NCBI RefSeq assembly: GCF_006974105.1
Contig: NZ_CP036282.1
Location: forward strand, 124,001 to 188,000
DNA from: Rhodoferax aquaticus
Lineage (GTDB): Bacteria; Pseudomonadota; Gammaproteobacteria; Burkholderiales; Burkholderiaceae_C
Direction of reading: 5' to 3'
Length of the DNA: 64,000 nucleotides
The notes beneath the pieces were generated by a model, which was given only the letters and a program-made list of their open reading frames with translations, was not told the DNA's origin and did no database searches. This document shows, in pieces, positions 19,885-64,000 of the stretch. How positions within the stretch are numbered: the stretch's first letter is position 1; each line of letters opens with the position of its first letter. The position numbers and the translations under genes were made by a program.

Positions 19885-21684
19885 TCAGGTTTTGATCTGA
19901 ATTACTTGTACTAACCAGACTTGCAGTGGATCTAGGCGATCGGATGCGTTGGCCAATAGCCATTTGACGATTTGAGGGCCATGCGAAGTTTTGTGATATT
20001 CCAAGGTTCCAACTTCCCTGAAAACCGCATTGAGCAGTTTTGCTGCGTGTATTGCATTACTGCTTGCATTCCTTGGTTGCAAGAGGCAGTCAAGCCCTTT
20101 TCCAAGTCGTTCTAACGCCTCTGCAACGGTACTCGTCGAGATCTCACGATCAAGCGATGTACTAAGCACTGCTGAAATGGCGTCTGCATGTAAGAAGTAG
20201 TCCTCCAGCATGGTGACCGGCAGAAAGTGAACTACCCCAGCACAGTCAGCTTCAATTTGTGTGATTTGCTCTTTTCGACGGCTTTCTCTATCCAATGCAA
20301 TTGCGACCATTGGCGGGGCGAGAAAACTGCTTGAGCTCAGTTTGCTGTAGATGTTGGCAATCGTTTTAGGACTTATTTTTTTTGACTCAAGATCGCCGGT
20401 TGCATGTAGCGGAAGTGTGGCTATTCCTTGTGCATGTTCGGGGAAGTACTTCCTCAGCAATAAGGGAAAGACAGCAGCCTCAGTTTCGCCCTCTACCCAA
20501 AGAACCTTATCGCAACCATGCAAATCCGTGAGGCTGATACCGAGGTCAAGAAGCCCAGCTCTTAGTTCGTTGAGTTTTTTGCCAACAGTCTGTTTCACTG
20601 TGGTTTGTTGTCCATCATGTTCCATCAACGTGACCGTCGTCGCGTCTACTGTGCGCAATACGTCGCTGGAGTGCGTTGTTATAAAGAACTGATGTTTGCT
20701 GCCAACTTCCGCCAAGATCGACAGCAGTTCACGTAAGGCTCTTGGATGTAAGAATGAGTTAGGTTCCTCTAACAGGATGAGACGTTGAGTCTGCGCGGTA
20801 AGTGCTACGTAGAGAATTGCTAGCGCATTCCCTATGCCTGTACCCACTCGATTAATGGGCACCGCTAAATCCCCTCGGTTCAAATGAGTCGGAGCGGAAT
20901 GCACTCGAAGCTCAAACTGGTTGTTTCCATTCGGTGGCGCTGCCACCCAGTAAATAGTGGGAAATACCCGGTGCAGTAGCTTGTTGAGCTGGTCGAACAA
21001 ATTGCTGTTGTTGGACTGCAGATAGTTGATGCAGTAGGCCAAATTTTCGCTGTTCGGTAGCAACTCTCCATTGGCGAAATGACCACAAATCGGCTTGATG
21101 TTTCGCTCAGAAGAAAAGCGATATATCTTTTGAGGGAGCTTTTGCCAGATTTGTCTTAACTCTTCAGCATTGTTGGTCACTACGAAGCTGCTGAAGTCCG
21201 ACAAATTTATTGCCGAAAATTTGGTGTTCGTCCCGAAAGTGCGCCATGTTGCAGGCCAGTCGCGGAACTGTAACCGCGCTGCAACAGGGCTATTGATCTG
21301 TAGTTTGAAGCTCAATTCCTGCTGGGTAGAACTAAGTCGTTGTCGAATGAGGTCAAAGTCGTTGCAGTACAAATGACCAGGTGCATTCCCGACCCCTAAA
21401 TAAACATCCGATACAGGGTATGCAAGGCTCTTCAGTTCTTGTGTAGAAACTGAAATGGTCAATTCGACTTCAGACTTTTCAGTAGGGACGTGACCCGGTT
21501 CATTGGAGTTCAACGTGGAAAGATGTGGAGTGTCACTTAATTCGTGCAGGGCGATTGCCTCTAGAACTGAAGTTTTTCCACTTGAGTTGGCTCCCAAGAG
21601 AATGTTGAAGCCAGGTCCGAATTCAAACTCTGTAGGTTGGAAAAAACTCTTGTAGTTTGCAATCTTCAGGTGCGATATGTGCAT
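19885..21684 (-). CDS. OLD family ATP-dependent nuclease (AAA + TOPRIM)
   Basis: 599 residues from ATG at 21684, or 603 from 21696. N-terminal ABC/SMC-like ATPase: MHISHLKIANYKSF opening, Walker A LLGANSSGKTS (near 29-39), a signature-like VGTGIGNALAILYVAL, Walker B LILLEEPNSFLHP and ITTHSS H-loop. A TOPRIM domain starts near residue 390 with KVLWVEGETEAAVFPLLL, where the Glu is the metal ligand. OLD proteins nick and degrade DNA and often serve in phage defence. No UvrD-like helicase gene is adjacent, so this is a stand-alone class 1 type. Base composition is visibly AT-richer than neighbours, suggesting transfer. Confidence 0.88.
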   Translation of the reverse strand: MHISHLKIANYKSFFQPTEFEFGPGFNILLGANSSGKTSVLEAIALHELSDTPHLSTLNSNEPGHVPTEKSEVELTISVSTQELKSLAYPVSDVYLGVGNAPGHLYCNDFDLIRQRLSSTQQELSFKLQINSPVAARLQFRDWPATWRTFGTNTKFSAINLSDFSSFVVTNNAEELRQIWQKLPQKIYRFSSERNIKPICGHFANGELLPNSENLAYCINYLQSNNSNLFDQLNKLLHRVFPTIYWVAAPPNGNNQFELRVHSAPTHLNRGDLAVPINRVGTGIGNALAILYVALTAQTQRLILLEEPNSFLHPRALRELLSILAEVGSKHQFFITTHSSDVLRTVDATTVTLMEHDGQQTTVKQTVGKKLNELRAGLLDLGISLTDLHGCDKVLWVEGETEAAVFPLLLRKYFPEHAQGIATLPLHATGDLESKKISPKTIANIYSKLSSSSFLAPPMVAIALDRESRRKEQITQIEADCAGVVHFLPVTMLEDYFLHADAISAVLSTSLDREISTSTVAEALERLGKGLDCLLQPRNASSNAIHAAKLLNAVFREVGTLEYHKTSHGPQIVKWLLANASDRLDPLQVWLVQVIQIKT

Positions 21685-21705
21685 CTCTGTTCCCATGTAA
21701 ATAAC

Positions 21706-21728
21706 CCCGCAGGCGTATGCTCTGCGGG
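21706..21728. other. Stem-loop upstream of the OLD-family gene
   Basis: Perfect 7-base stem CCCGCAG / CTGCGGG with a 9-base loop, in the leader of the OLD-family gene (minus strand). There is no T-run on either side. It could be a leader structure, or a stop for transcription arriving from the pyrimidine transporter operon. Confidence 0.4.
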
Positions 21729-21755
21729 TTGGATTGTGGCAGCTTGTTTTGGTGA

Positions 21756-21893
21756 CTAAACCACCTTCGCCCGTTCCAACGTCGCATGCAGCAGCATATT
21801 GCAGCCTGCCGTGATGTGCTCCGGTTTGGTGTCTTCAATCTCGTCTTGGCTACTGCCGTCTTTACTGGGGATGAAGACTATGCGGCTGGGCAG
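21756..21893 (-). pseudogene. 3' remnant of a Zn-dependent amidohydrolase gene
   Basis: On the minus strand this reads IVFIPSKDGSSQDEIEDTKP, then EHITAGCNMLLHATLERAKVV and a stop. That is close to the C-terminus of the amidohydrolase gene at 26527 (MIFIPCKDGISHNEIEDAKP, then EHITAGCNVLLHAMLERAGT). Directly upstream in frame is a TAG, so only about 45 codons survive and no start is available. It lies just past the end of the ABC transporter genes, so the transporter block is flanked by two copies of the same hydrolase 3' end. Probably a duplication or recombination scar. Confidence 0.85.
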
Positions 21894-21936
21894 CTAATCA
21901 CGAGAGGTTCAAACCTCTTCTGGCCGCATCAATACG

Positions 21937-22860
21937 TCAACGTTCGCCTTTTCGATACGGTTTCATCAACGCTTGCGGGTAGCTGGCTTTGCGTGCCACC
22001 AGCACCAGCGCGAGGATGGACAGCACGTAGGGCAGCATCAGGTAGAGCTGGTAGGGCAGCACTGCGCTACCGCTTTGCTGCAGTCGCAACTGGATAGCGT
22101 CAAAGAATGCAAACAGCAGCGCGCCCAGCAAGGCCTTGCCGGGCCGCCATGAGGCAAATACAACCAATGCCACACAGATCCACCCGCGGCCGTTCACCAT
22201 ATTGAAGAAGAAGGCGTTGAATGCAGACAGGGTGAGGAAAGAGCCTGCAATACCCATCAAAGCAGAGCCTGCCACGATGGCACCGGTGCGCACTTGCGCC
22301 ACCGAAACGCCTTGGCCTTCCGCGGCTTGCGGGTTCTCGCCAACCATGCGCACAGACAAACCCAAGGGCGTGCGATACAACACATACGCCAATAACGGAA
22401 CCAATGCCAGTGCCAACAGCGTGAGCGGTGTTTGCTGCGCAAGCACTGGCAGGCCCAGCCACCCCATCTCGGCAAAGGGGGTGATGGTGGGCGGCGTGCT
22501 CACTTTGGGAAAACTCACCCGGTAGCCGTAGTAACTGAGCGAGGTGGCCAGCAGTGTGATGCCGAGGCCCGACACGTGTTGCGACAGCGCGAGGCCTACG
22601 GTCAGAAACGCATGCAACGAACCCAGCACCGCCCCGGTGGCCGCCGCTGCCGCCACACCGACCCACAAAGGCGCCCCGGCATACACGGTGAGCCAGCCGG
22701 TGAAGGCCCCTGCCACCAGGATGCCCTCAATGCCTAGGTTCAACACCCCGGCCCGCTCGCACAACAACACGCCCAGGGTCCCAAAAATCAGGGGCGTGGC
22801 TATGCGCAGCACCGCCACCCAGAACGAGAGGTTGGACAAGATATCGACTAGTTCCGTCAT
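21937..22860 (-). CDS. BMP-type ABC transporter permease (second subunit)
   Basis: 307 residues, about eight to nine membrane segments, of the BPD_transp_2 (RbsC-like) fold used by nucleoside importers. Diagnostic blocks: RIATPLIFGTLGVLLCERAGVLN near the N-terminus, NLGIEGILVAGAFTGW, and GRGWICVALVVFASWRPG in the C-terminal half. The ATG overlaps the stop of the preceding permease gene (ATGA). It is the last complete gene of the pyrimidine operon. Paired with the 22857 permease it should form the membrane channel. Confidence 0.9.
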   Translation of the reverse strand: MTELVDILSNLSFWVAVLRIATPLIFGTLGVLLCERAGVLNLGIEGILVAGAFTGWLTVYAGAPLWVGVAAAAATGAVLGSLHAFLTVGLALSQHVSGLGITLLATSLSYYGYRVSFPKVSTPPTITPFAEMGWLGLPVLAQQTPLTLLALALVPLLAYVLYRTPLGLSVRMVGENPQAAEGQGVSVAQVRTGAIVAGSALMGIAGSFLTLSAFNAFFFNMVNGRGWICVALVVFASWRPGKALLGALLFAFFDAIQLRLQQSGSAVLPYQLYLMLPYVLSILALVLVARKASYPQALMKPYRKGER

Positions 22861-51894: not shown

Positions 51895-52371
51895 TTAGTG
51901 GTGGTGGCCGTGTGCGCCGTGCACATGTTTGTGTTGGATTTCTTCGCTAGACGCAGCGCGCACTTCGGTCACTTTCAAGCTAAAGCGGAGGTCTTTGCCC
52001 GCCCAAGGGTGGTTGCCGTCCAAGAACACGGTGTCACCCTTGATCTTCATGACGGTAAAGGCAATTTCTTGGCCCTCTGGCGTGCGGCCTTGCAACTGGC
52101 CACCCACCTTGACGCCAGCCGGAAAGTCTTTCTTGGCAATGGTTTGCACCAAGGTTTCATCGCGCACACCAAACGCATCCGCTGCAGCCAAAGCCAACGT
52201 GGTTTGGTAGCCCGCTTCTTGGCCATCCAGCGCTTCTTCGATTTTGGGTAAGGTGTTGCCGTAACCGCCATGCAGGTAGGCCATGGGTTCTTTGGCTTCT
52301 TCAATCAGCTTGCCTTGCGCATCAGAAACTTTGTAGCGCAGGGTCACAACGGTGTCTTTGTCGATTTTCAT
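51895..52371 (-). CDS. FKBP-type peptidyl-prolyl cis-trans isomerase (SlyD-like)
   Basis: 158 residues. FKBP fold with a SlyD-type insert-in-flap domain: MKIDKDTVVTLRYKVSDAQG at the start, AYLHGGYGNTLPKIEEALDG, then the flap KVGGQLQGRTPEGQEIAF, and NHPWAGKDLRFSLKVTEV. The C-terminus is His-rich (HKHVHGAHGHHH), fitting nickel or copper binding as in SlyD. Chaperone and metal-delivery roles are known for the family. It lies 131 bases downstream of the EamA gene on the same strand. Confidence 0.92.
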   Translation of the reverse strand: MKIDKDTVVTLRYKVSDAQGKLIEEAKEPMAYLHGGYGNTLPKIEEALDGQEAGYQTTLALAAADAFGVRDETLVQTIAKKDFPAGVKVGGQLQGRTPEGQEIAFTVMKIKGDTVFLDGNHPWAGKDLRFSLKVTEVRAASSEEIQHKHVHGAHGHHH

Positions 52372-52502
52372 AGGGAGACGGTGGGGGAGTTAATAAGGAA
52401 TGTGCTGATTTTCGCCGATTGGCGGGAGGCGCGGCATTGCGTGGTGATCGGCGAGTCACTGGGCAGGGGCCGATCAGCCTGCGCGATGCGGTCTTTGCCA
52501 GC

Positions 52503-53342
52503 TCACGCCAAGCGCAGGGCCACTACGCCACCCAGGATGATGGCCGTGCCCAGTGCACGGCGCACGGTGAATGCTTCTTTGAGCAACCATGCACCCAGAA
52601 GCACCGCAAACAGCACCGAGGTTTCGCGCAGTGCAGCCACGGTGGCTACGGGAGCTTGGGTCATGGCCCACAGGGCGATGCCGTAGGAGCCCAAGGACGC
52701 ACACGCCCCCAGTGTTGCGATGGGCCAGCGCTTGCGCGCGTAGCGGGTGAACTCTCCTTTGCGTTTGGCCCACACCATCAGGCCAAAGGGCCAACCGTCT
52801 AACAAAAAGAGGGTGACCACATAGGCAATGGCGTTGCCACTGAGGCGCACACCTAGGCCGTCGATCACGGTGTACATGGCAATGATGACGGCATTGGCTA
52901 ATGCAAACGCAATAGCTTTGGGCACCTTGAGAGCTTGGGCGCTTAAACCCAAGACCATGACGCCGCCGCAAATGCCCAATACACCCGCCCACGCCAAAGG
53001 TGTGAGGTGTTCGCCCAAAGTAAGGGTGGCAGACAGTGCCACCAGCATGGGCGCTACGCCGCGCATCAACGGATAAGTGAGGCCCAAATCTCCATGGCGA
53101 TAGGCGCCGGTGAGGGCCAAGTAGTAGCCAATGTGCACACACAAGGACGCTGCAATATAGGGCCACGCCGCTGGCTCAGGCAGGCCAACCCACAGCACCA
53201 ATGGGATGGCGAGCAAGGAGCCAATCAGGTGGATGAGGGCGGTGTCCAGGTCTTTGTCGGTGCTGGACTTCACCAGCGCGTTCCAGCTGGCGTGCAAAAG
53301 CGCCGCAAACAAAACGGCGGCAACTACGGTTCCACTGAGCAT
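52503..53342 (-). CDS. EamA/DMT family transporter at the end of the phosphonate operon
   Basis: 279 residues, about ten membrane helices. N-terminal repeat ALLHASWNALVKSS is the RhaT/EamA opening; the second half has FALANAVIIAMYTVIDGLGV. ATG at 53342 (a TTG precedes it in frame). It starts 15 bases after the FAD oxidoreductase stop, so it should be co-transcribed with the phosphonate genes. Such proteins move small amines or amino acids, often outward; a role in handling phosphonates or their amine by-products is inference. Confidence 0.85.
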   Translation of the reverse strand: MLSGTVVAAVLFAALLHASWNALVKSSTDKDLDTALIHLIGSLLAIPLVLWVGLPEPAAWPYIAASLCVHIGYYLALTGAYRHGDLGLTYPLMRGVAPMLVALSATLTLGEHLTPLAWAGVLGICGGVMVLGLSAQALKVPKAIAFALANAVIIAMYTVIDGLGVRLSGNAIAYVVTLFLLDGWPFGLMVWAKRKGEFTRYARKRWPIATLGACASLGSYGIALWAMTQAPVATVAALRETSVLFAVLLGAWLLKEAFTVRRALGTAIILGGVVALRLA

Positions 53343-53357
53343 CAAATGGGGCTGGGG

Positions 53358-54746
53358 TTAGGCTTTGTCGGATTTGCCTGCCGCGTTGGCAAAGGTACTG
53401 AGCCAACGATCTAGCAACCACGGTGTGCGGTTGTCGTCCTCAGCTTGTTCTTTGCGTCGAATGGCATTGCGCACCATGATAGACCCCACATAGCGCACCG
53501 GCTCTGGTGGAAACTGACCCAAAGGCCCTTGGGTCAGTGGGCTGCGCGTCCAGGCATTGTCCAAGCCCAAGACCATGGAAGACAAAATCTGGCCCCCCAT
53601 GTAGCTGGGCCCCACGCCATTGCCCGAGTAGCCAAAGCCGTACACGATGTGCCGCGCGCCATTGAGTTGCCCAAAAAACGGGAAGCCTGTGACCGACCGG
53701 TCCGACGGGCCGTTCCAGCTCGCCGTCATGGGCAGCTTGCCCAGCTGCGGGAAAAAGCCACGCATGGCTTGGGTGAGCTGGGCTTCGTAAGGCGAGCGCT
53801 GGTCAAACACCGGCTCCATGCGGCCGCCACGGGCAAAGGTGTTGCCGCCTTTGCCCAGCATGATGCGGCCGTCCATGGTGGTGCGGTAGTAGTACACAAA
53901 GGTGCGCGAGTCCAAGACCGAGACGCCGTCGCGCAGGCCGATGTGCGCCAAGAGTTCCGGGCAGCGCTCGGTGATGACCATGTCGCTAGACACAATGGCA
54001 ATGCTGCGCTCAAACTGCTTGAAGCTGCTGGCCATCCACGCGTTCATGGCCAGCACCAGCTTGCCTGCGGTGATGCTGCCGCCGGGCGTACGCACCACCA
54101 CCGGCTGGTCGGTACTGAAGTCAAGCATGGGGCTGCGCTCATAAATGCGAATGCCCATCTCCAGCGCTACACGGCGCAGGCCGCGCACCAGCTTGCCCGG
54201 GTGCACCGTGGCGGCATAGGGTGAAAACACGCCGGCCAAGTTGCGTTTGGAGCCTGAGCGCTGTGCCACTTCGGCTGCGGGCATGGCGTGGTAAGAGTGC
54301 AGGCCGCACGACTCCAGCGCAGCGATCACCGGGTCGAGCGCGCCAATGTGCACGGAAGCAGTGGCGGTGTATAGGGTGCCGTCTTGGCGGTACTCCGCGT
54401 CGATCTGGTGCTTTTTGCAAAAATCACCGATGTGTTGCACCGCTGCCTCGGAGGCGCGCACCAAGCGCACGGCCTCGGCTTCGCCAAACAGCTTGCGCAG
54501 GGTAAAGAACTTGGCCGACCAGGTGAGTACACAGCCGCCGTTGCGCCCACTGGCACCGGCCCCGCACAGGTCGCTCTCCAAGATGGCAATGTCTAGGCAG
54601 GGGTTGTGTTGCTTGGCTTGTATGGCGGTCCACAAACCGGTGAAGCCGCCGCCCACGATGCACACATCGGCGGTGTGATCGCCATGCAGTGCGGGGGCCA
54701 GTTCACCGTCTCGAAACAAGGCTTGCTCTAACCAAAAGGGACGCAT
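53358..54746 (-). CDS. FAD-dependent amine oxidoreductase of the phosphonate operon
   Basis: 462 residues from ATG at 54746. DAO-family FAD enzyme: dinucleotide fold VCIVGGGFTGLWTAIQAK near 28-45, GAGASGRNGGCVLTW near 60-75, and C-terminal HIVYGFGYSGNGVGPSYMGG. Similar to gamma-glutamylputrescine and glycine/D-amino-acid oxidases. Recurrent FAD enzymes of this kind in AEP clusters oxidise AEP or N-alkylated AEP to phosphonoacetaldehyde; that is the best guess here. Lies between the PhnZ-like and EamA genes. Confidence 0.85.
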   Translation of the reverse strand: MRPFWLEQALFRDGELAPALHGDHTADVCIVGGGFTGLWTAIQAKQHNPCLDIAILESDLCGAGASGRNGGCVLTWSAKFFTLRKLFGEAEAVRLVRASEAAVQHIGDFCKKHQIDAEYRQDGTLYTATASVHIGALDPVIAALESCGLHSYHAMPAAEVAQRSGSKRNLAGVFSPYAATVHPGKLVRGLRRVALEMGIRIYERSPMLDFSTDQPVVVRTPGGSITAGKLVLAMNAWMASSFKQFERSIAIVSSDMVITERCPELLAHIGLRDGVSVLDSRTFVYYYRTTMDGRIMLGKGGNTFARGGRMEPVFDQRSPYEAQLTQAMRGFFPQLGKLPMTASWNGPSDRSVTGFPFFGQLNGARHIVYGFGYSGNGVGPSYMGGQILSSMVLGLDNAWTRSPLTQGPLGQFPPEPVRYVGSIMVRNAIRRKEQAEDDNRTPWLLDRWLSTFANAAGKSDKA

Positions 54747-54765
54747 CAAAAGCTCTCAGTCCAAG

Positions 54766-55332
54766 TTAGGCCAGCACAGGCGCGGCGGGCAAGGCGCAGC
54801 GTGCAGCCCGTGCCATGAAGTGATCCAAGCTCGGTGTTGTGCGCGTGGGGTCTTTGGCCAAGTCGTCCCACAGGCGCAGGCATACCGCCTCATGTGCGCC
54901 CTCTTGCGCTATGAATTTTGTAGCTTGCTGCGCAGTGTATACGCCGCCTTGCAAGGCAAGACTGCGCTGTGAATCGGCGGACAGGGCCGCTTGGTAGCCT
55001 GCGTGTGTAGCGCACAGGTAGCGTTTGGCGTCTACGTGCAGGCGTATGCCGCTGAGCACGCTGTCAGGAAACAGGCCGCGCAAAAAGGGGATCACGCGGT
55101 ACTGGTGCACATCGTCCACGCCCGCGAGGGTGGGGGTTTCACCCATGTCATGCAGCAGGTGACCCAGGTCGTGCAACAAGGCGGCGGTGACCAGTGCGTC
55201 GCTGGCACCGGCCTCTTCGGCCAAGGCAGCGGTTTGCAAGGCGTGCTCCAGTTGGGTGACCGGCTCACCGCTGTACTGCGCGTCGCCCTTGGTGAGAAAC
55301 AGGGTGCGGATGTCGTCTAAGTTGAGTGCCAT
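54766..55332 (-). CDS. PhnZ-like HD-domain mixed-valent diiron oxygenase (phosphonate operon HD protein)
   Basis: 188 residues from ATG at 55332, with AAGG six bases upstream. HD-domain fold with candidate metal ligands His30, His54, Asp55, His76, His99 and Asp156. Their spacing, and the Tyr20-x-x-Glu23 pair, match those I recall for PhnZ, which cleaves (R)-2-amino-1-hydroxyethylphosphonate to glycine and phosphate using O2. Basic residues Lys103 and Arg153 could bind phosphonate. Spacing to phnY is 8 bases. It corresponds to the family named for phosphonate operons. A cleavage role is inferred. Confidence 0.85.
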   Translation of the reverse strand: MALNLDDIRTLFLTKGDAQYSGEPVTQLEHALQTAALAEEAGASDALVTAALLHDLGHLLHDMGETPTLAGVDDVHQYRVIPFLRGLFPDSVLSGIRLHVDAKRYLCATHAGYQAALSADSQRSLALQGGVYTAQQATKFIAQEGAHEAVCLRLWDDLAKDPTRTTPSLDHFMARAARCALPAAPVLA

Positions 55333-55340
55333 GGCGTGCC

Positions 55341-56798
55341 TTACTGCCAAGGCAGCGAGAAAGTTTTGACGTTGGTAAAGCTCTTGATGGCTTCTTGCAC
55401 GCCTTCTTTGTAGCCCAAGCCAGAGTCTTTGATGCCGCCAAAGGGCGTGAGCTCTAGGCGGTAGCCTGGCACTTCGCGCACATTCACCGAGCCCACATGC
55501 AGGGCGTTCACAAAACGTGTGATGTAGTCCATGCGGTTGGTGCACACCGAGCTGGACAAACCGTAGGCCGTGCCGTTGGAGATGGCAATGGCTTCGTCAA
55601 TGCTGTTAAAGCGGATGATGGGTGAGACCGGGCCAAAGGTTTCCTCTTTGACCACCAGCATGTCGGGGTGCACATGGTCCAGCACCGTGGGGCTGTAAAG
55701 CGCGCCTTGGCGCGCATTGCCTACCAAGAGGTGCGCGCCTTGTGCCACGGCTTCGTTCACACGGCTTTCAAAAAAGCGTGCAGCTGCTTCGTCAATGACG
55801 GTGCCCATGTCGTTGCTGGCATCTGCCGGGTTGCCAAACTTCCAGGCGCGGGTCTTGGCCACCACCTGCTCGACAAAAGCATCAGCCACGGCACTGTGCA
55901 CCAGCATGCGCTTGACGGCCGTGCAGCGTTGGCCAGAGTTTTTGTAAGAGCCTTGCACCGCCAAGGTAGACGCCTCGTCCAGGTCGGCGTCTTCCATCAC
56001 GATGATGGGGTCGTTACCGCCCAATTCCAGCACCATGCGCCGGTAGCCGGCCTTGCTGGCAATGTATTTGCCGATGGCCACGCCACCGGTAAAGGTGACC
56101 AGGTCCACGTGGGGGTTCGTGATGAGTTCGTCCGCAATCTCGCGTGGGTCGCCGGTGATCACGCTCAGGGCTTCGGGTGGCAGACCTGCTTCGTACAAGA
56201 TGTCGGCAAACAAGATGGCCGAGAAGGGCACTTTTTCCGAGGGCTTGAGCACCATGCGGTTGTTGGTGGCAATGCTGGGCACCACCTTGTGCGCCACCTG
56301 GTTCATGGGGTGGTTGAACGGGGTGATCGCGGTGATCACACCCAGCAGCGGTGCACGCTGGGTAAACACCTTGCGCTTTTTGCCGTGGGGGGTGAGGTCG
56401 CAACTAAATACCTGGCCATCGTCTTTGAGCACTTCGTTGGCGCCAAACACCAGCACGTCGCTCACGCGGCCGGTTTCGTACAGCGCATCTTTGATGCACA
56501 GGCCCGACTCGGCGCTGATGAGCTGGGCAATGGCCTCGCGCCGCTGGGTCACGATGGCGGCCGCTTTGTTGAGCACCGCCGCGCGCTCATAGCGGCTGAG
56601 TTGGGGCTGGTAAGCATGTGCGGTGGCAAATGCCTCGCGCACTTCTTCCAGCGTGGCCTTGGGCACGCGCCCTATCACTGCTTCGGTGAAGGGGTTGTAG
56701 ACCGCAATGCTGCGGTCCTCACTGCGGTCTTGGCCGACCACCCGGCCTGCGATGCGCATGGCATTGAGGCGCTGGTCTTGGATGTACTGTTGAATCAC
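55341..56798 (-). CDS. phnY: Phosphonoacetaldehyde dehydrogenase
   Basis: 485 residues, aldehyde dehydrogenase superfamily. Cofactor region PLLGVITAITPFNHPMN, glycine-rich VTFTGGVAIGKYI, Glu in VLELGGNDPIIVMEDADL and the catalytic Cys in YKNSGQRCTAVKRM. GTG start at 56798. It is placed between phnA and the PhnZ-like gene, which distinguishes it from generic aldehyde dehydrogenases. Oxidises phosphonoacetaldehyde to phosphonoacetate with NAD+. Confidence 0.92.
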   Translation of the reverse strand: MIQQYIQDQRLNAMRIAGRVVGQDRSEDRSIAVYNPFTEAVIGRVPKATLEEVREAFATAHAYQPQLSRYERAAVLNKAAAIVTQRREAIAQLISAESGLCIKDALYETGRVSDVLVFGANEVLKDDGQVFSCDLTPHGKKRKVFTQRAPLLGVITAITPFNHPMNQVAHKVVPSIATNNRMVLKPSEKVPFSAILFADILYEAGLPPEALSVITGDPREIADELITNPHVDLVTFTGGVAIGKYIASKAGYRRMVLELGGNDPIIVMEDADLDEASTLAVQGSYKNSGQRCTAVKRMLVHSAVADAFVEQVVAKTRAWKFGNPADASNDMGTVIDEAAARFFESRVNEAVAQGAHLLVGNARQGALYSPTVLDHVHPDMLVVKEETFGPVSPIIRFNSIDEAIAISNGTAYGLSSSVCTNRMDYITRFVNALHVGSVNVREVPGYRLELTPFGGIKDSGLGYKEGVQEAIKSFTNVKTFSLPWQ

Positions 56799-56828
56799 GG
56801 TGTGCCTTGTGTTCAGTGGCGGGCTGCG

Positions 56829-58064
<1,236 letters not shown>

Positions 58065-58080
58065 TCAGAGTGGGTTTTAA

Positions 58081-58794
58081 CTAAGCGTGTGTTTTGGATG
58101 TTGCAGGCGTGTGACCTTGGCGGCGCAGGTCGTTGGCAATGGTGCGTTCTTTGCTCTGCATGGCGTGCTCAAACATGGCCTGCCCGGCGGCATCTGCATC
58201 TTTGGACGCAATGGCTTTCAAAATCTTTTGGTGCTCGTTGGCAGACACGGGCATCTTCCAGCCTTCAGACAGGTTCAGGCGCCTAAAGAGCGAGAGCTCT
58301 TTGATGAGCTTGCGGTAAATAGCGACCAGCTTGCTATTGCCCGTCATCTCCACCAAGCGGTCGTGAAACTTCAGGTTCAGCAGGTGGTACTGGTAGGTGT
58401 CATCGGCTTTGGCGGCTTTTTTCATGGCGTCTACCAACTCGCGCAGTTCTTTGAGCTGCTGGGGTGTGGCCTCGGTGGCGAGCTTGCGGCCCACCATCTG
58501 GTCCATGGCGGCGCGCAGGTCAAAGATTTCGATGGCTTCTTCGATCGGAATGGCTTTGACAAACACGCCACGGTTTTTCTCCGTGCGTACCAAGCCGGCT
58601 TCGTCCAGCATGCGAAAAGCTTCACGAATGGGGCCACGCGAAACGCCCATTTTTTCAGCCAGGGTGACTTCAATCAGCTGGCTGCCGGGTGGATATTCGC
58701 CCGCAAGAATGGCACGTTCAATTTCTTGTTGCACCACAGTGGCGAGTGAGCTGCTCTGTAGCAGTGCAATGGTGGGGTTGGTCACAGCGTTCAT
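58081..58794 (-). CDS. GntR family regulator of the phosphonate locus
   Basis: 237 residues from ATG at 58794; an in-frame ATG at 58818 would add eight residues. FadR/VanR-type: N-terminal winged helix (EYPPGSQLIEVTLAEKMGV, preceding SRGPIREAFRML) and a helical FCD ligand domain (LRAAMDQMVGRKLATEA, HDRLVEM with FCD metal ligands). It heads the minus-strand phn operon and faces phnS, so it likely controls both. Inverted repeats at 58823-58853 and 58893-58928 are candidate sites. Effector may be a pathway phosphonate. Confidence 0.88.
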   Translation of the reverse strand: MNAVTNPTIALLQSSSLATVVQQEIERAILAGEYPPGSQLIEVTLAEKMGVSRGPIREAFRMLDEAGLVRTEKNRGVFVKAIPIEEAIEIFDLRAAMDQMVGRKLATEATPQQLKELRELVDAMKKAAKADDTYQYHLLNLKFHDRLVEMTGNSKLVAIYRKLIKELSLFRRLNLSEGWKMPVSANEHQKILKAIASKDADAAGQAMFEHAMQSKERTIANDLRRQGHTPATSKTHA

Positions 58795-58822
58795 GCATGG
58801 TATTGGAGCACAACGCATTAAA

Positions 58823-58853
58823 TTGTCAACAATCTACAAAAAACAATTGACAA
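58823..58853. promoter_or_regulatory. Inverted repeat TTGTCAA...TTGACAA near the GntR gene
   Basis: TTGTCAA at 58823-58829 and TTGACAA at 58847-58853 are perfect inverted copies 17 bases apart, just upstream of the GntR gene. A plausible operator for autoregulation. Confidence 0.45.
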
Positions 58854-58892
58854 GTGTGTTGCTGAATCGTTCAATTAAGAGTGAGACATGTG

Positions 58893-58928
58893 AGGTGACA
58901 TGATTAATGGTTAAAAATGTCATCACCT
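58893..58928. promoter_or_regulatory. Inverted repeat AGGTGACAT...ATGTCATCACCT upstream of phnS
   Basis: AGGTGACAT (58893-58901) and ATGTCATCACCT (58917-58928) form an imperfect inverted repeat, with three extra bases in the right arm, about 50 bases upstream of the phnS start. A candidate GntR or other operator for the importer operon. Confidence 0.45.
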
Positions 58929-58977
58929 TGTCACATTAAAAACTGAGCATTGCGGTCTTTCAACCAAGGAGCTTCAC

Positions 58978-60015
58978 GTGAAAATTTCCACTGTGTCTAA
59001 GGCGCTTGTCGTAACCGGGCTGCTGGCATTTGCCAGCTTCGCGTCCGCCCAAAAAACCCAGCTGCTGGTTTACACCGCACTGGAAACTGACCAGCTGAAG
59101 GCCTACCAAGAGGCCTTCAACAAAGTCAACCCCGACATCGAGTTGAAATGGGTACGCGACTCAACCGGTGTGATCACTGCCAAGCTCCTGGCGGAAAAAG
59201 CCAACCCCCAAGCCGACGCCATCATGGGCGTGGCGGCCACCAGCTTGGCCCTGATGGACAAGCAAGGCATGCTGGAGCCCTATGCGCCCTTGAACTTGGA
59301 CGCCATCATGAGCCAGTACCGTGACAAAAAGAAGGTGCCTAGCTGGTGGGGTATGGATGTGTGGGGCGCCACCATCTGCTTCAACACCGTAGAAGCCCAA
59401 AAGCGCAATATCCCCAAGCCAGAAACTTGGCAAGACCTCACCAAACCGGTCTACAAAGGCCAAGTCGTGATGCCTAACCCCGCATCCAGCGGCACGGGTT
59501 ACTTTGACGTAGTGGCGTGGCTCACCTTGTTTGGCGACAAAGACGGCAAGGGCGGCGGCTGGAAGTACATGGATGCGCTGCACGACAACATTGGCCAGTA
59601 CACCCACTCAGGCTCCAAGCCCTGCAATATGGCGGCCAGCGGCGAATACGTGGTGGGCATCTCGTTTGAATACCGCGCCAATGCCAACAAAGCCAAGGGC
59701 GCACCCATTGACTTGGTGTTCCCCAAAGAAGGTCTGGGTTGGGACCTGGAAGCCTTTGCCATCCACAAGGGCACCAAGAAGCTAGACGCTGCGAAGAAGT
59801 TGGCGGACTGGGCCTCGAGCAAAGACGCCATGATGCTGTACGGCAAAAACTTTGCCATCACCGCACAACCTGGCGTGGCCGCACCTTTGGCCAATGTGCC
59901 CAAAGACTATGAGCAGCGTTTGGTCAAGCTGGACTTTGGCTACGCAGCAGAGCAACGCGAACGTATCTTGACCGAGTGGACCAAGCGCTACGACGGCAAG
60001 AGCGAAAAGCGCTAA
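58978..60015 (+). CDS. phnS: 2-Aminoethylphosphonate ABC transporter binding protein
   Basis: 345 residues from GTG at 58978, six bases after AAGGAG. Signal peptide MKISTVSKALVVTGLLAFAS (cut after ASAQ). Type II binding protein: LLVYTALETDQLKAYQEAF, WVRDSTGVITAKLLAEKANP, SWWGMDVWGATICFNTVEAQ, and a conserved PASSGTGYFDVVAWL ligand loop. Placed directly before an ATPase and fused permease and before phnW, so AEP is the likely ligand. Followed by a stem-loop that may protect its transcript. Confidence 0.92.
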   Translation: MKISTVSKALVVTGLLAFASFASAQKTQLLVYTALETDQLKAYQEAFNKVNPDIELKWVRDSTGVITAKLLAEKANPQADAIMGVAATSLALMDKQGMLEPYAPLNLDAIMSQYRDKKKVPSWWGMDVWGATICFNTVEAQKRNIPKPETWQDLTKPVYKGQVVMPNPASSGTGYFDVVAWLTLFGDKDGKGGGWKYMDALHDNIGQYTHSGSKPCNMAASGEYVVGISFEYRANANKAKGAPIDLVFPKEGLGWDLEAFAIHKGTKKLDAAKKLADWASSKDAMMLYGKNFAITAQPGVAAPLANVPKDYEQRLVKLDFGYAAEQRERILTEWTKRYDGKSEKR

Positions 60016-60041
60016 TTCCCTGTACGTACCTGAGGCACCTT

Positions 60042-60068
60042 GGGCCACTGCATACGGTGCAGTGGCCC
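60042..60068 (+). other. Stem-loop between phnS and phnT
   Basis: Perfect 11-base stem GGGCCACTGCA (60042-60052) with TGCAGTGGCCC (60058-60068) and a 5-base loop, no T-run after it. It likely stabilises the phnS transcript or partly limits readthrough into phnT, giving excess binding protein. Confidence 0.65.
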
Positions 60069-60083
60069 TTACCGACCCAAAGC

Positions 60084-61136
60084 ATGAGTTCCACCCCTTT
60101 CCTCCAATTGCGCCAAGTTCGCAAAGAATTTGGCAGCTTCACGGCGCTGCAAGACATTGACCTTGACATTGGCAAGGGAGAGTTCGTGTGCTTTCTGGGC
60201 CCCTCGGGCTGTGGCAAAACTACCTTGCTGCGCATCATTGCTGGCCTAGAGGTGCAGACCCGTGGCCACATCTCCCAAGGGGGGCGCGATGTGTCGCTGC
60301 TGCCGCCTGCCTTGCGTGACTACGGCATCGTGTTCCAAAGCTATGCCCTGTTCCCCAACCTCTCGGTGGCGGACAACGTGGCCTATGGCTTGGTGAACCG
60401 CAACACACCGCGTGCCCACGTGAAGCAGCGCGTGTCTGAGCTGGTGAAGTTGGTCGGCCTGCCCGGCAGCGAAGGCAAATACCCGGGGCAGCTCTCGGGT
60501 GGCCAGCAGCAGCGCATTGCCTTAGCCCGCGCCTTGGCGACCTCACCCGGCTTGCTGTTGCTGGACGAGCCCTTATCCGCTCTGGATGCGCTGGAGCGCG
60601 TGCGCTTGCGCCAAGAAATTCGGGCGCTGCAGCAGTCTTTGGGGGTGACCACCATCATGGTCACCCATGACCAAGAAGAGGCCCTGAGCGTGGCCGACCG
60701 CATTGTGGTGATGAACCAAGGTGCCATTGAACAGGTGGGCACGCCTATGGAGATTTACCGCGAGCCTGCCTCGCCCTTTGTGGCCGACTTTGTGGGCAAG
60801 GTCAACGTGCTGCCTGCCCGCTTGGAGCAAGGCGAGCTGCATGTCGGCGGCATGCGCTTGCCGTTTGAGGGTGTGAGCCGCGACGTGCGCTTGTACCTGC
60901 GCCCTGAAGACGTGCTGGCCCGCCCCATTGCAGCGGGTGATGCGCATGTGTTTGACGCCCGCATCGACAAGATCGAATTTTTAGGCTCGTACTGCCATGT
61001 GCATGTGAACGCGCCTGCCTTGAATGCGCACGACTTGGTGGTCTACCTGTCGCTCAACTTTTTGTCAGAGCAGTCTTTGCAAGTGGGCTCCAGCCTGCCA
61101 CTCAAGTTGCTGCCTGAGCGCATGAAGGTGTTTTGA
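60084..61136 (+). CDS. phnT: 2-Aminoethylphosphonate ABC transporter ATP-binding protein
   Basis: 350 residues from ATG at 60084 (MSSTPFLQLRQVRKEFG); the upstream frame overlaps phnS. Walker A GPSGCGKTTLLR near 42-53, Q-loop VFQSYALFPN, signature LSGGQQQRIALARAL, Walker B LLLLDEPLSALD, H-loop VTHDQEEAL, and a TOBE domain with LYLRPEDVL. Stop overlaps the permease start (TGATG). The family includes PotA and FbpC; AEP specificity comes from the operon. Confidence 0.92.
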   Translation: MSSTPFLQLRQVRKEFGSFTALQDIDLDIGKGEFVCFLGPSGCGKTTLLRIIAGLEVQTRGHISQGGRDVSLLPPALRDYGIVFQSYALFPNLSVADNVAYGLVNRNTPRAHVKQRVSELVKLVGLPGSEGKYPGQLSGGQQQRIALARALATSPGLLLLDEPLSALDALERVRLRQEIRALQQSLGVTTIMVTHDQEEALSVADRIVVMNQGAIEQVGTPMEIYREPASPFVADFVGKVNVLPARLEQGELHVGGMRLPFEGVSRDVRLYLRPEDVLARPIAAGDAHVFDARIDKIEFLGSYCHVHVNAPALNAHDLVVYLSLNFLSEQSLQVGSSLPLKLLPERMKVF

Positions 61137-62854
61137 TGTCTGCCGTGCTGCCCATTTGTGCCGCTGCCCCGGTGCAGCTCAAACAACACTGGATTGACCG
61201 TCTGGCGCACGTGGCTATTGCGATCATAGCTCTGGTTTTGATAGCATTTTTGGCGTCGCCCCTGCTGGCGATCTTGGTGCAGTCCACCGCCAATGCCGAT
61301 GGCAACTTTGTGTGGTTTGACAACTTTGTGGCCTACGCCAAAACCCCAGCGCTCCTAGGCAGTTTGTGGAACAGCGTGTGGGTGTCGGCCGTGGTCACCG
61401 TGATCACGCTGCCCTTGGCGTTTACCTTTGCCTATGCATTGACGCGTTCGTGCATGCCGTTCAAGGCCTTTTTTCGCGGTATTACCTTGGTGCCGCTGCT
61501 GGCGCCGTCGCTGCTGTCGGCGATCTCTTTGATCTACTGGTTTGGTAACCAGGGGGTGCTCAAGGGCTGGATGCACGCAGTGGGCATCTCCGAAATTTAT
61601 GGTGCACCCGGCATCATCTTGGCCGAGTGCTTTGCCGTGTTCCCCCATGCGCTGATGATCTTGGTGACGGCCTTGAGCCTCTCCGACGCACGCTTGTACG
61701 AGGCGGCAGACGCCATGGGCACCAGCGCGCGGCGCAAGTTTTTCACCATCACCCTGCCCGGTGCCAAGTACGGTCTGATCTCTGCCGCTATGGTCACGTT
61801 CACCTTGGTGGTGACCGACTTCGGCATTCCCAAGGTGATTGGCGGCAACTTCAATGTGTTGGCTACCGACGTGTTCAAGCTGGTGATCGGCCAGCAAGAC
61901 TTTGCCAAGGGCGCGGTGGTTGCCATTGTGCTTTTGGCCCCTGCATTGTTGAGCTTTGCGGTGGATGGCTACGTGAGCCGTCGCCAAACCGCCATGCTGA
62001 CCGCGCGCGCTGTGCCATACCGCCCCAAGCCCTCCGCCACGCACGACCGTTGGATGACCGCGTTCTGCTGCGTGATTGCCGCGCTGGTGCTTGCCATGTT
62101 GGGCATGGCGGTGTTTGCTTCGTTCGCGACGTTCTGGCCCTACAACTTGACCCCCAGCTGGCGTCACTACACCCTGGGCCTGCTAGACGCGGAGGTGGGA
62201 GAGGCCTTTTTCAACAGCGTAAAGATGGCAGCCGGCACTGCGGTGTTTGGTACCGCCGTGGTGTTTTCAGGTGCTTACCTGCTAGAAAAAACCAAAGGCA
62301 TGGACCGTCTGCGCGGACTGGTGCGCCTGCTGGCGGTGCTGCCTATGGCGGTGCCTGGCTTGGTGCTGGGCTTGGGTTACATCTTTTTCTTTAACGCGCC
62401 GAGCAACCCCTTGAGTGCGATGTACCACACGCTGACTCTTATGACGGTGTGCACCATCATGCACTTCTACACCACGGGCCACCTCACCGCAGTCACCGCG
62501 CTCAAAGCCTTGGACAGCGAGTTCGAGGCCGTGAGTGCCTCACTCAAAGTGCCATTTTTCAAAACGTTCTGGCGCGTGACCTTGCCCGTGTGTGCGCCCG
62601 CGCTGATCGACATGGCGCGCTACTTTTTCATCAATGCCATGACCACCATCTCGGCCGTGGTGTTTCTGTACGCCCCAGAGACCAAAGTGGCCTCCATTGC
62701 CATTTTGAACTTGGACGAATCCGGTGAAATGGGCGCAGCCGCAGCCATGGCCGTGCTGATCGGTCTGACCTCCACCGTGGCGACCTTGCTCTTTATGGTG
62801 CTGGGTTGGTTCGTGACCAAACACACCCAAGCTTGGCGCAACAGCGCGCGCTAG
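61136..62854 (+). CDS. 2-Aminoethylphosphonate ABC transporter permease, two fused domains
   Basis: 572 residues from ATG at 61136, overlapping the phnT stop. About twelve membrane segments in two halves that correspond to PhnU and PhnV of Salmonella-type systems, here one polypeptide. First EAA loop at [20 protein letters not shown] (near 190), second at [20 protein letters not shown] (near 465). Binding-protein-dependent permease signature present in both. Fused permeases occur in related FbpB-type importers. Next gene is phnW, 47 bases downstream. Confidence 0.9.
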
Positions 62855-62901
62855 CTATCGCAATCCAAGCCCACATCTCAAACACACAGCAGGAGACACC
62901 C

Positions 62902-64000
62902 ATGGACAGAGACAAAATACTGCTCACCCCCGGCCCACTGACCACCACCTTGCGCACCAAGCTGGCCATGCTCAAAGACTGGGGCTCATGGGACGCAGAC
63001 TTTATTGCGGTCACTGCCAGTGTGCGCAAAAGCCTGCTCAACATCGTGCACGGTCAAGAGAGCCATGTGGTGGTGCCCCTGCAAGGCAGTGGCACCTTCA
63101 GCGTGGAGGCAGCTGTAGCCACCGTCGTGCCGCGTGATGGCCACGTCTTGGTCTTGGACAACGGCGCGTACTGCAAGCGGGCAGGGCGCCTCACCACCCT
63201 CATGGGGCGGCGTTGCACCATCCACGAAAGCGATGAAGCCCATGCAGTGTCTGCCAGCGTGTTGGACGGTTTGCTAGCCCAAGACCCCAGCATCACCCAC
63301 GTCATCTTGATCCACTGCGAAACCGGGGCGGGCGTGCTCAACCCACTGCAAGCCGTGGCCGATGTGTGTGCGCGCCACGGCAAGGGTCTGATCGTGGACG
63401 CCATGAGTTCGTTTGGTGCTTTGGAGATTGATGCGCGCACCTGCCAGTTTGACGCCCTCATTGCCGCCAGTGGCAAATGCTTGGAAGGCGTGCCCGGCAT
63501 GGGTTTTGTGTTCATCCGCAAAGCCATTCTGGACGCTTGCGCTGGCAACAGCCAGTCACTCGCCATGGACCTGTACGACCAGTACCAATACATGGAAAAA
63601 ACCGGCCAATGGCGCTTCACCCCGCCCACCCATGTGGTGGTGGCTTTGGCAGAGGCTATTGCCCAGTTCGAGGCGGAGGGTGGCCAACCCGCCCGCTTGG
63701 CGCGCTACCGTGCCAACTACGAAGCATTGGTGCAAGGCATGGCAGGCTTGGGCTTCAAGCCCTTCTTGGACCCCGCAGAGCAAGCGCCCATCATCGTCAC
63801 CTTCCACGCGCCCACCCACCCCAACTACGACTTCAAGCGCTTCTACGAATGCGCCAAGCAATACGGCTTCTTGCTCTACCCCGGCAAGCTCACGCAGGTA
63901 GAAACCTTTCGCGTCGGCTGCATAGGCGCCATAGGCCCCAACGAAATGCGCCAAGCCGTGCACGCCGTGGCGCAGACACTGCAAACCTTGGGGATCGCAC
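62902..64000 (+). CDS. phnW: 2-Aminoethylphosphonate:pyruvate transaminase, 3' end outside window
   Basis: 366 residues visible; the gene runs past the window edge. AGGAG upstream of ATG at 62902. Class V PLP aminotransferase: [10 protein letters not shown] at the N-terminus, [15 protein letters not shown] (cofactor phosphate loop), [13 protein letters not shown] with the PLP-ring Asp, and the Schiff-base Lys192 in [16 protein letters not shown]. Converts AEP and pyruvate to phosphonoacetaldehyde and alanine. Feeds the phnY-phnA route encoded divergently. Confidence 0.95.

Follow-up and report, generated by a model that had tools for sequence, protein, structure and literature searches.

A phnWAY aminophosphonate locus of Rhodoferax aquaticus with predicted branches for N-methyl-2-aminoethylphosphonate and (R)-1-hydroxy-2-aminoethylphosphonate

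A ten-gene cluster at the end of a 64,000-nucleotide stretch of Rhodoferax aquaticus DNA (hereafter the window, positions 124001-188000 of the single 4.74-Mb contig NZ_CP036282.1) probably encodes a phnWAY system for 2-aminoethylphosphonate (AEP), extended by one branch for N-methyl-AEP and another for (R)-1-hydroxy-2-aminoethylphosphonate ((R)-HAEP). Specifically, the HD protein of the cluster, PhnHD, would cleave imported (R)-HAEP, and a GntR regulator would control both operons through the palindrome ATTGTCAACAAT. The ATP-binding cassette (ABC) transporter PhnS2T2U2, judged by its family, would bring in AEP and close analogues; PhnW would convert AEP to phosphonoacetaldehyde, PhnY would carry this to phosphonoacetate, and PhnA would release acetate and phosphate, three conversions that are established for the respective families. 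The flavin adenine dinucleotide (FAD) enzyme would turn N-methyl-AEP into phosphonoacetaldehyde and methylamine, as evidence from the PbfB group elsewhere suggests. PhnHD, having no PhnY* partner, would use O2 to split external (R)-HAEP into glycine and phosphate, thereby doing the job of PbfA in other bacteria, and the EamA carrier may belong to this branch or handle its product. GntR, finally, would bind ATTGTCAACAAT between the two operons and act on both. The general idea of aminophosphonate side branches is already in print (2021-2025); the present analysis contributes a more specific prediction of the PhnHD substrate, a candidate operator and a pattern of exchangeable FAD enzymes.

The ten genes run from 52503 to the window end, as a minus-strand series GntR-phnA-phnY-HD-FAD-EamA and a divergent plus-strand series phnS-phnT-phnU-phnW (Table 1). 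Nine of them score above the curated threshold that NCBIfam sets for a named phosphonate family, and only EamA stays below its own, that of TIGR03340, which is by far its best family; on the same model four other EamA proteins score 323.8 (Vibrio, above the cut-off) and 202.7, 145.2 and 285.7 (all below). Such a match of ten adjoining genes to phosphonate families is not chance, and the presence of PhnW, PhnY and PhnA in one cluster, each above its curated cut-off, makes it a phnWAY cluster. The order, strands and gaps of 8-30 bases given in the initial annotation hold (25 bases for GntR/phnA, 30 for phnA/phnY, 8 for phnY/HD, 16 for HD/FAD and 12 for FAD/EamA), all ten genes match named phosphonate families, and the divergent phnS-phnT-permease-phnW series is right in order and strand, except that its permease is one fused PhnU2 protein. 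The three enzymes, the AEP ABC transporter and a regulator are shared with the phnWAY pathways of Sinorhizobium meliloti and Burkholderia multivorans; the window differs in its GntR regulator of the phnR_burk type (a LysR gene lies near in S. meliloti) and in the two accessory enzymes and EamA that its operon also carries. The phnWAY clusters with a phnZ homologue in the accessible part of PMC8154272 resemble it in having a PhnZ homologue and no PbfA, and the window operon adds PbfB and EamA to that set. Of the phosphonate routes searched for, this cluster is the only one that was found: a second carbon-phosphorus (C-P) route was not found in the genome, with no PhnJ of C-P lyase in the PF06007 search and no PhnX above cut-off (best TIGR01422 score 54.8 bits versus 220), and PbfA was likewise absent at E <= 1e-60.

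PhnHD is the only TIGR03276 protein of the genome. It can be aligned along most of the chain to PhnZ and TmpB and retains Y20, E23, H30, H54, D55, H58, H76, H99 and D156, and with them the H..HD..H..H..D diiron motif and the YxxE loop of PhnZ, whose glutamate contacts the substrate amino group according to the accessible text of PMC8177086; H30, H54, H58, H76 and H99 are invariant in the nine sequences of alignment A1. The AlphaFold model (mean predicted local distance difference test score 88.9) has TmpB and substrate-bound PhnZ as nearest folds, with template modelling scores of 0.78-0.83, and identity to both proteins is 30-35%. A tree of 58 proteins, midpoint-rooted and with several long branches that leave the outer placements unsure, assigns PhnHD to a 46-row group (98/94) that is separate from both the PhnZ-like pair linked to PhyH, L042/L043, and the seven TmpA-linked rows. 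It scores 143.3 bits against 300 on the TmpB model NF049941, with no TmpA-like gene among the ten of the cluster, and 127.9 bits against 300 on the hydroxymethylphosphonate model NF052439 of GmPhnZ1. PhnHD thus shares fold, diiron ligands and YxxE loop with the PhnZ, TmpB and GmPhnZ1 oxygenases and differs from them in forming a separate clade and in having no PhnY* or TmpA partner found; the earlier label "PhnZ-like" fits the fold and ligands, but the protein belongs to the TIGR03276 clade and is not PhnZ itself. The Achromobacter PhnHD presented in the available portion of PMC11203657 is of the same clade and likewise lies beside an FAD oxidoreductase gene and phnSTU, although its locus differs in having PhnX with HpnW (TIGR03364) and a LysR regulator. 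Because PhnZ-type chemistry itself splits the C-P bond, PhnHD would be a parallel C-P cleavage and not a feeder into PhnY and PhnA, and the original idea of the HD enzyme as a side entry to those two has to be given up.

No good candidate for a PhnY* partner of PhnHD was found in the cluster or the genome, TauD-family (TmpA-like) proteins elsewhere not having been searched. If a PhnY*-type hydroxylase were encoded elsewhere in the genome, PhnHD would complete, as its second half, the ordinary oxidative PhnY*-PhnZ pathway that starts from AEP. Two PhyH-family proteins are indeed encoded there, and one of them shares 31-34% identity, across some 145 residues, with the PhnY*-type proteins of L042/L043; both genes lie more than 1.3 Mb from the cluster, and on the methylphosphonate hydroxylase model (cut-off 500) one protein reaches 49.8 bits and the other has no match. 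The neighbourhoods of relatives also speak against such a pairing. We classified 119 PhnHD loci, namely 80 from relatives (the best 80 of 518; all Burkholderiales by titles or nearest names, with a few unclassified metagenome-assembled genomes) and 39 from the family, which were hand-picked from about 90 full-length places (40 fetched) and include one whose PhnHD DNA is identical to one of the 80. Genes were located by tblastn with known proteins, two gene callers having given spurious open reading frames (ORFs) on GC-rich DNA, and in 24 of the 119 less than 1.5 kb of contig follows PhnHD, so that downstream counts are lower bounds. PhyH, TmpA, PbfA and PbfC each neighbour PhnHD in none of them. 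As a control, TmpA was found in all seven TmpB-clade loci (L036-L040, L148 and L149; queries from L148/L149, cross-detected at 70% identity) and PhyH in both PhnZ-like loci (L042 and L043, both of which were queries, cross-detected at 76-77% identity), controls that use close queries and do not cover the reach to a distant PhnY*; neither gene shows up in the outgroup loci L146, L147 and L041, the last of these at a contig edge. A class-wide sample of 369 genomes gave TIGR03276 matches in 42, only the window's own being above the cut-off, and nine full-length places, eight of them fetched or used as outgroups. A distant PhnY* partner seems to us very unlikely, and a stand-alone PhnHD preferable.

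The argument that such a stand-alone enzyme would act on (R)-HAEP comes from its relation to PbfA. We searched 250 family genomes for PhnHD, PbfA, PhnA and PhnX, taking PhnHD at TIGR03276 E <= 1e-30 (85 genomes, the clade not checked for all), PhnA at E <= 1e-60 (48 genomes, in 46 of which it exceeds the cut-off) and PhnX at E <= 1e-50 (47 genomes, again with 46 above the cut-off). PhnA or PhnX is encoded in 90 genomes, counting that of the window; PhnHD is present in 63 of these, PbfA in eight, and the two together in none (Fisher P 2.9e-5). Sampling a single genome from each genus gives a median P of 9e-4, and both types occur in two of 65 genera, though in different species. PbfA occurs in nine genomes altogether, one of which (G451) has neither PhnA nor PhnX. 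Mutual exclusion as such was already published in 2021: in Table 1 of PMC8154272, as far as that source is accessible, 24 of 75 phnWAY clusters have a phnZ homologue, 17 have pbfA and none has both. The present analysis adds exchange within one slot. In L266 the order is GntR-PbfA-EamA (4-base overlap, 9-base gap), and its PbfA scores 644.6 bits on the PbfA model (cut-off 525); in L264 and L261 PbfA directly follows GntR; the same slot is filled by PhnHD in L050 and L227, which read GntR-PhnHD-EamA. EamA is present in 52 of the 119 PhnHD loci, and in 50 of them it is the first recognised gene to follow PhnHD, at most 600 bases away. The shared slot and shared EamA were not seen in the accessible parts of PMC8154272, PMC10590968, PMC12366243, PMC11203657 and PMC10574752, nor among the papers listed by literature searches.

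These distributions also bear on the possibility that neither the HD gene nor the FAD gene widens the substrate range, both being passengers or serving in the general handling of stress. Hydrolases are common among HD proteins, and the roles given to both genes here are predicted ones; however, the operon is tight, the set of oxygenase ligands is full, PhnHD occurs in 63 of the 90 PhnA/PhnX genomes versus 22 of the 160 others (P 2e-19), and TIGR03329, the FAD family of the window, adjoins PhnHD in four of the five family genomes that have it above cut-off, the matched stretches being 55 to about 510 bases apart. Of the explanations considered, we hold this one the least probable, and very unlikely.

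The FAD enzyme is well supported, by its family match, as a PbfB-type enzyme of N-methyl-AEP oxidation. According to the accessible text of PMC10590968, published in 2023, three FAD groups of AEP clusters, PbfB, PbfC and PbfD, convert N-methyl-AEP to phosphonoacetaldehyde; the PbfB group, for which the activity evidence comes from cell extracts, is found mostly in Beta- and Gammaproteobacteria and includes the Vibrio vulnificus enzyme. The window enzyme falls in TIGR03329 together with other Vibrio members and is 48-54% identical to Vibrio and Plesiomonas homologues among the matches listed, and the V. parahaemolyticus homologue scores 851.5 bits on TIGR03329; the assignment was made through the model score of the window enzyme and the Vibrio match to the same model. 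The genomic setting differs from that of the PbfB systems, since phnX is present in both the Plesiomonas locus, there along with phnW, and the V. parahaemolyticus record, and PhnHD is seen in neither stretch. Of the initial proposal that the extra enzymes serve N-alkylated and hydroxylated AEP, the first part is thus backed by the published PbfB activity on N-methyl-AEP and the second indirectly, by the slot exchange of the HD gene with PbfA.

TIGR03329 exceeds its cut-off in only five of the 250 family genomes, and across the 119 PhnHD loci the FAD kinds never occur together: 25 loci have a DMGDH-like protein, 16 TIGR03364 (HpnW/PbfD1), five TIGR03329 and 73 none. The DMGDH-like protein (domains DAO, FAO_M and GCV_T; e.g., L045:11415-13832 of Limnohabitans, 481 bits to 4pab) closes a phnA-phnY-PhnHD-EamA operon in Limnohabitans, Ramlibacter, Rubrivivax pictus and others, all 25 loci having EamA, and a 57%-identical gene lies near phnWAY on S. 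meliloti pSymA. It is possible that this is a fourth aminophosphonate N-demethylase; its identification with PbfC was rejected, the gene that occupies the PbfC position in Azospirillum B510 being 28% identical to it. The frequency of the DMGDH-like gene is also what lends some weight to a different substrate of PhnHD, another alpha-hydroxyphosphonate such as N-methylated (R)-HAEP, giving sarcosine that the DMGDH-like enzyme of many relatives could demethylate, or hydroxymethylphosphonate. A 45%-identical DMGDH-like gene some 5 kb from the TmpA-TmpB-like pair of L040, where an N-methylated glycine is the expected product, and the occurrence of PhnHD in C-P lyase loci fit this explanation as well. 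It is countered by the fact that PbfA, able to share the slot, is an (R)-HAEP enzyme, by the low scores of the window protein on the hydroxymethylphosphonate and TmpB models, and by the window itself carrying PbfB and not the DMGDH-like enzyme; we consider it unlikely, more probable nonetheless than a distant PhnY* partner, and keep (R)-HAEP as the predicted substrate.

Several observations weigh against this prediction. PhnA and PhnX are both absent from 22 of the 85 PhnHD genomes, and the exclusion between PhnHD and PbfA could partly reflect lineage. The clean swap is rare: EamA occurs in three of nine PbfA loci (L261, L262 and L266), directly after PbfA only in L266, several of the nine being short contigs. 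The PhnHD loci contain PhnA in 65, PhnX in 19 and PhnJ in six of the 119 cases, and the 29 without any of these genes (some cut by contig ends) are unexpected for a strict PbfA substitute. So is the finding of PhnHD in the same fetched stretch as C-P lyase genes in six of the 39 family loci, or in or near C-P lyase operons on a Nostoc plasmid (L127) and a Variovorax plasmid (L130). The PhyH protein resembling those of L042/L043 makes a distant PhnY* partner conceivable, the role given to EamA is a guess, and gene context together with retained residues does not prove the substrate of PhnHD.

The single divergent region between the two operons contains ATTGTCAACAAT, which is proposed as the candidate operator of the GntR regulator. 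Of the 51 phnS/GntR intergenic regions compared (loci, the window included, in which the two genes neighbour 40-400 bases apart), 37 contain the motif exactly in the form ATTGTCRACAAT, three with one mismatch and 11 with two, so that all 51 fall within two mismatches. Shuffles gave 0.05 exact matches per 51 regions, a contrast that is optimistic and counts against too firm a conclusion, the motif having been picked from the same regions in which it was counted. The view that one regulator serves the locus gains support from this conserved palindrome. The whole genome has one other exact match, within the coding ORF of a glycosyltransferase-like gene, and a regulon beyond the locus was rejected on that ground. 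A sigma-70 promoter scan of 52300-60100 gave no match (2.2 expected), and a literature search for a published operator listed a single paper, on another subject by its title. The true start of the GntR gene may be the ATG at 58794 instead of that at 58818, an ATG being present at both.

The exact six-gene order of the minus strand, whose conservation in relatives the initial proposal made a condition, occurs in none of the 119 loci and was rejected as a conserved unit, whereas the five-gene order without EamA is found in L074, L122, L211, L212 and L126, the last on a Variovorax plasmid; five of the six genes in window order are thus known from Undibacterium, Collimonas, two further relatives and that plasmid. 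A Na/Pi-cotransporter with a PhoU domain is present in 24 of the 119 loci (e.g., L045:8315-9970), usually between phnY and PhnHD, as well as in L145, and precedes phnW in S. meliloti; the window cluster has none. Perhaps it is an export valve for phosphate when phosphonates serve as carbon or nitrogen source. PhnHD also lies near C-P lyase genes in a species of the window's own genus (L210, G583) and in five further family loci. In Burkholderia multivorans and B. arboris (L268 and L269) a 16S rRNA start motif follows about 530 bases after PhnHD, which may be why 23 of the 80 contigs end within 700 bases of it. Elsewhere in the window, an AT-rich minus-strand gene at 19885-21696 (GC 0.485 in 20001-22000) encodes a 603-residue ATPase of the AAA_15/OLD type that matches many defence models weakly.

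Table 1. Features of the phosphonate locus, in window positions, with model scores and curated cut-offs
Feature	Position	Strand	Basis
EamA/DMT transporter	52503..53345	-	Pfam EamA 64 bits; nearest TIGR03340 phn_DUF6 275.5 bits, cut-off 288.15
FAD aminophosphonate oxidoreductase, PbfB-type	53358..54749	-	TIGR03329 810.2 bits, cut-off 632.8
PhnHD, predicted PhnZ-fold diiron oxygenase of the TIGR03276 clade	54766..55332	-	TIGR03276 223.7 bits, cut-off 214.6
phnY, phosphonoacetaldehyde dehydrogenase	55341..56798	-	TIGR03250 853 bits, above cut-off
phnA, phosphonoacetate hydrolase	56829..58055	-	TIGR02335 595.8 bits, above cut-off
GntR/FCD regulator phnR_burk	58081..58818	-	TIGR03338 329 bits, cut-off 271.5; beside phn genes
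Palindrome ATTGTCAACAAT, proposed operator	58822..58833	.	conserved in phnS/GntR intergenic regions
phnS2, AEP-binding protein of ABC transporter	58978..60015	+	TIGR03261 493.1 bits, above cut-off
phnT2, ATPase	60084..61136	+	TIGR03265 501.5 bits (protein scored from two codons upstream of the ATG), above cut-off
phnU2, fused permease, 573 aa	61133..62854	+	TIGR03262 786.7 bits, above cut-off
phnW, AEP:pyruvate transaminase	62902..64000	+	TIGR02326 495.2 bits (TIGR02326/PRK13479), above cut-off; ATG start 62902, end 8 bases past the window

A farther-reaching reading, whose chances we judge to be even, holds that PhnHD is a stand-alone (R)-HAEP oxygenase and the oxidative counterpart of the PbfA lyase, able to use the same slot with the same EamA. 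The locus would then combine two C-P cleavages, hydrolysis by PhnA and oxidation by PhnHD, for three natural aminophosphonates under one operator, and a fourth FAD enzyme, folate-type and DMGDH-like, would replace PbfB, PbfC or PbfD in many relatives. The slot exchange with PbfA leads to a specific substrate prediction for PhnHD, (R)-HAEP without PhnY*, and counting phnZ-like genes of metagenomes as AEP degraders of the PhnY* route would accordingly mislead.

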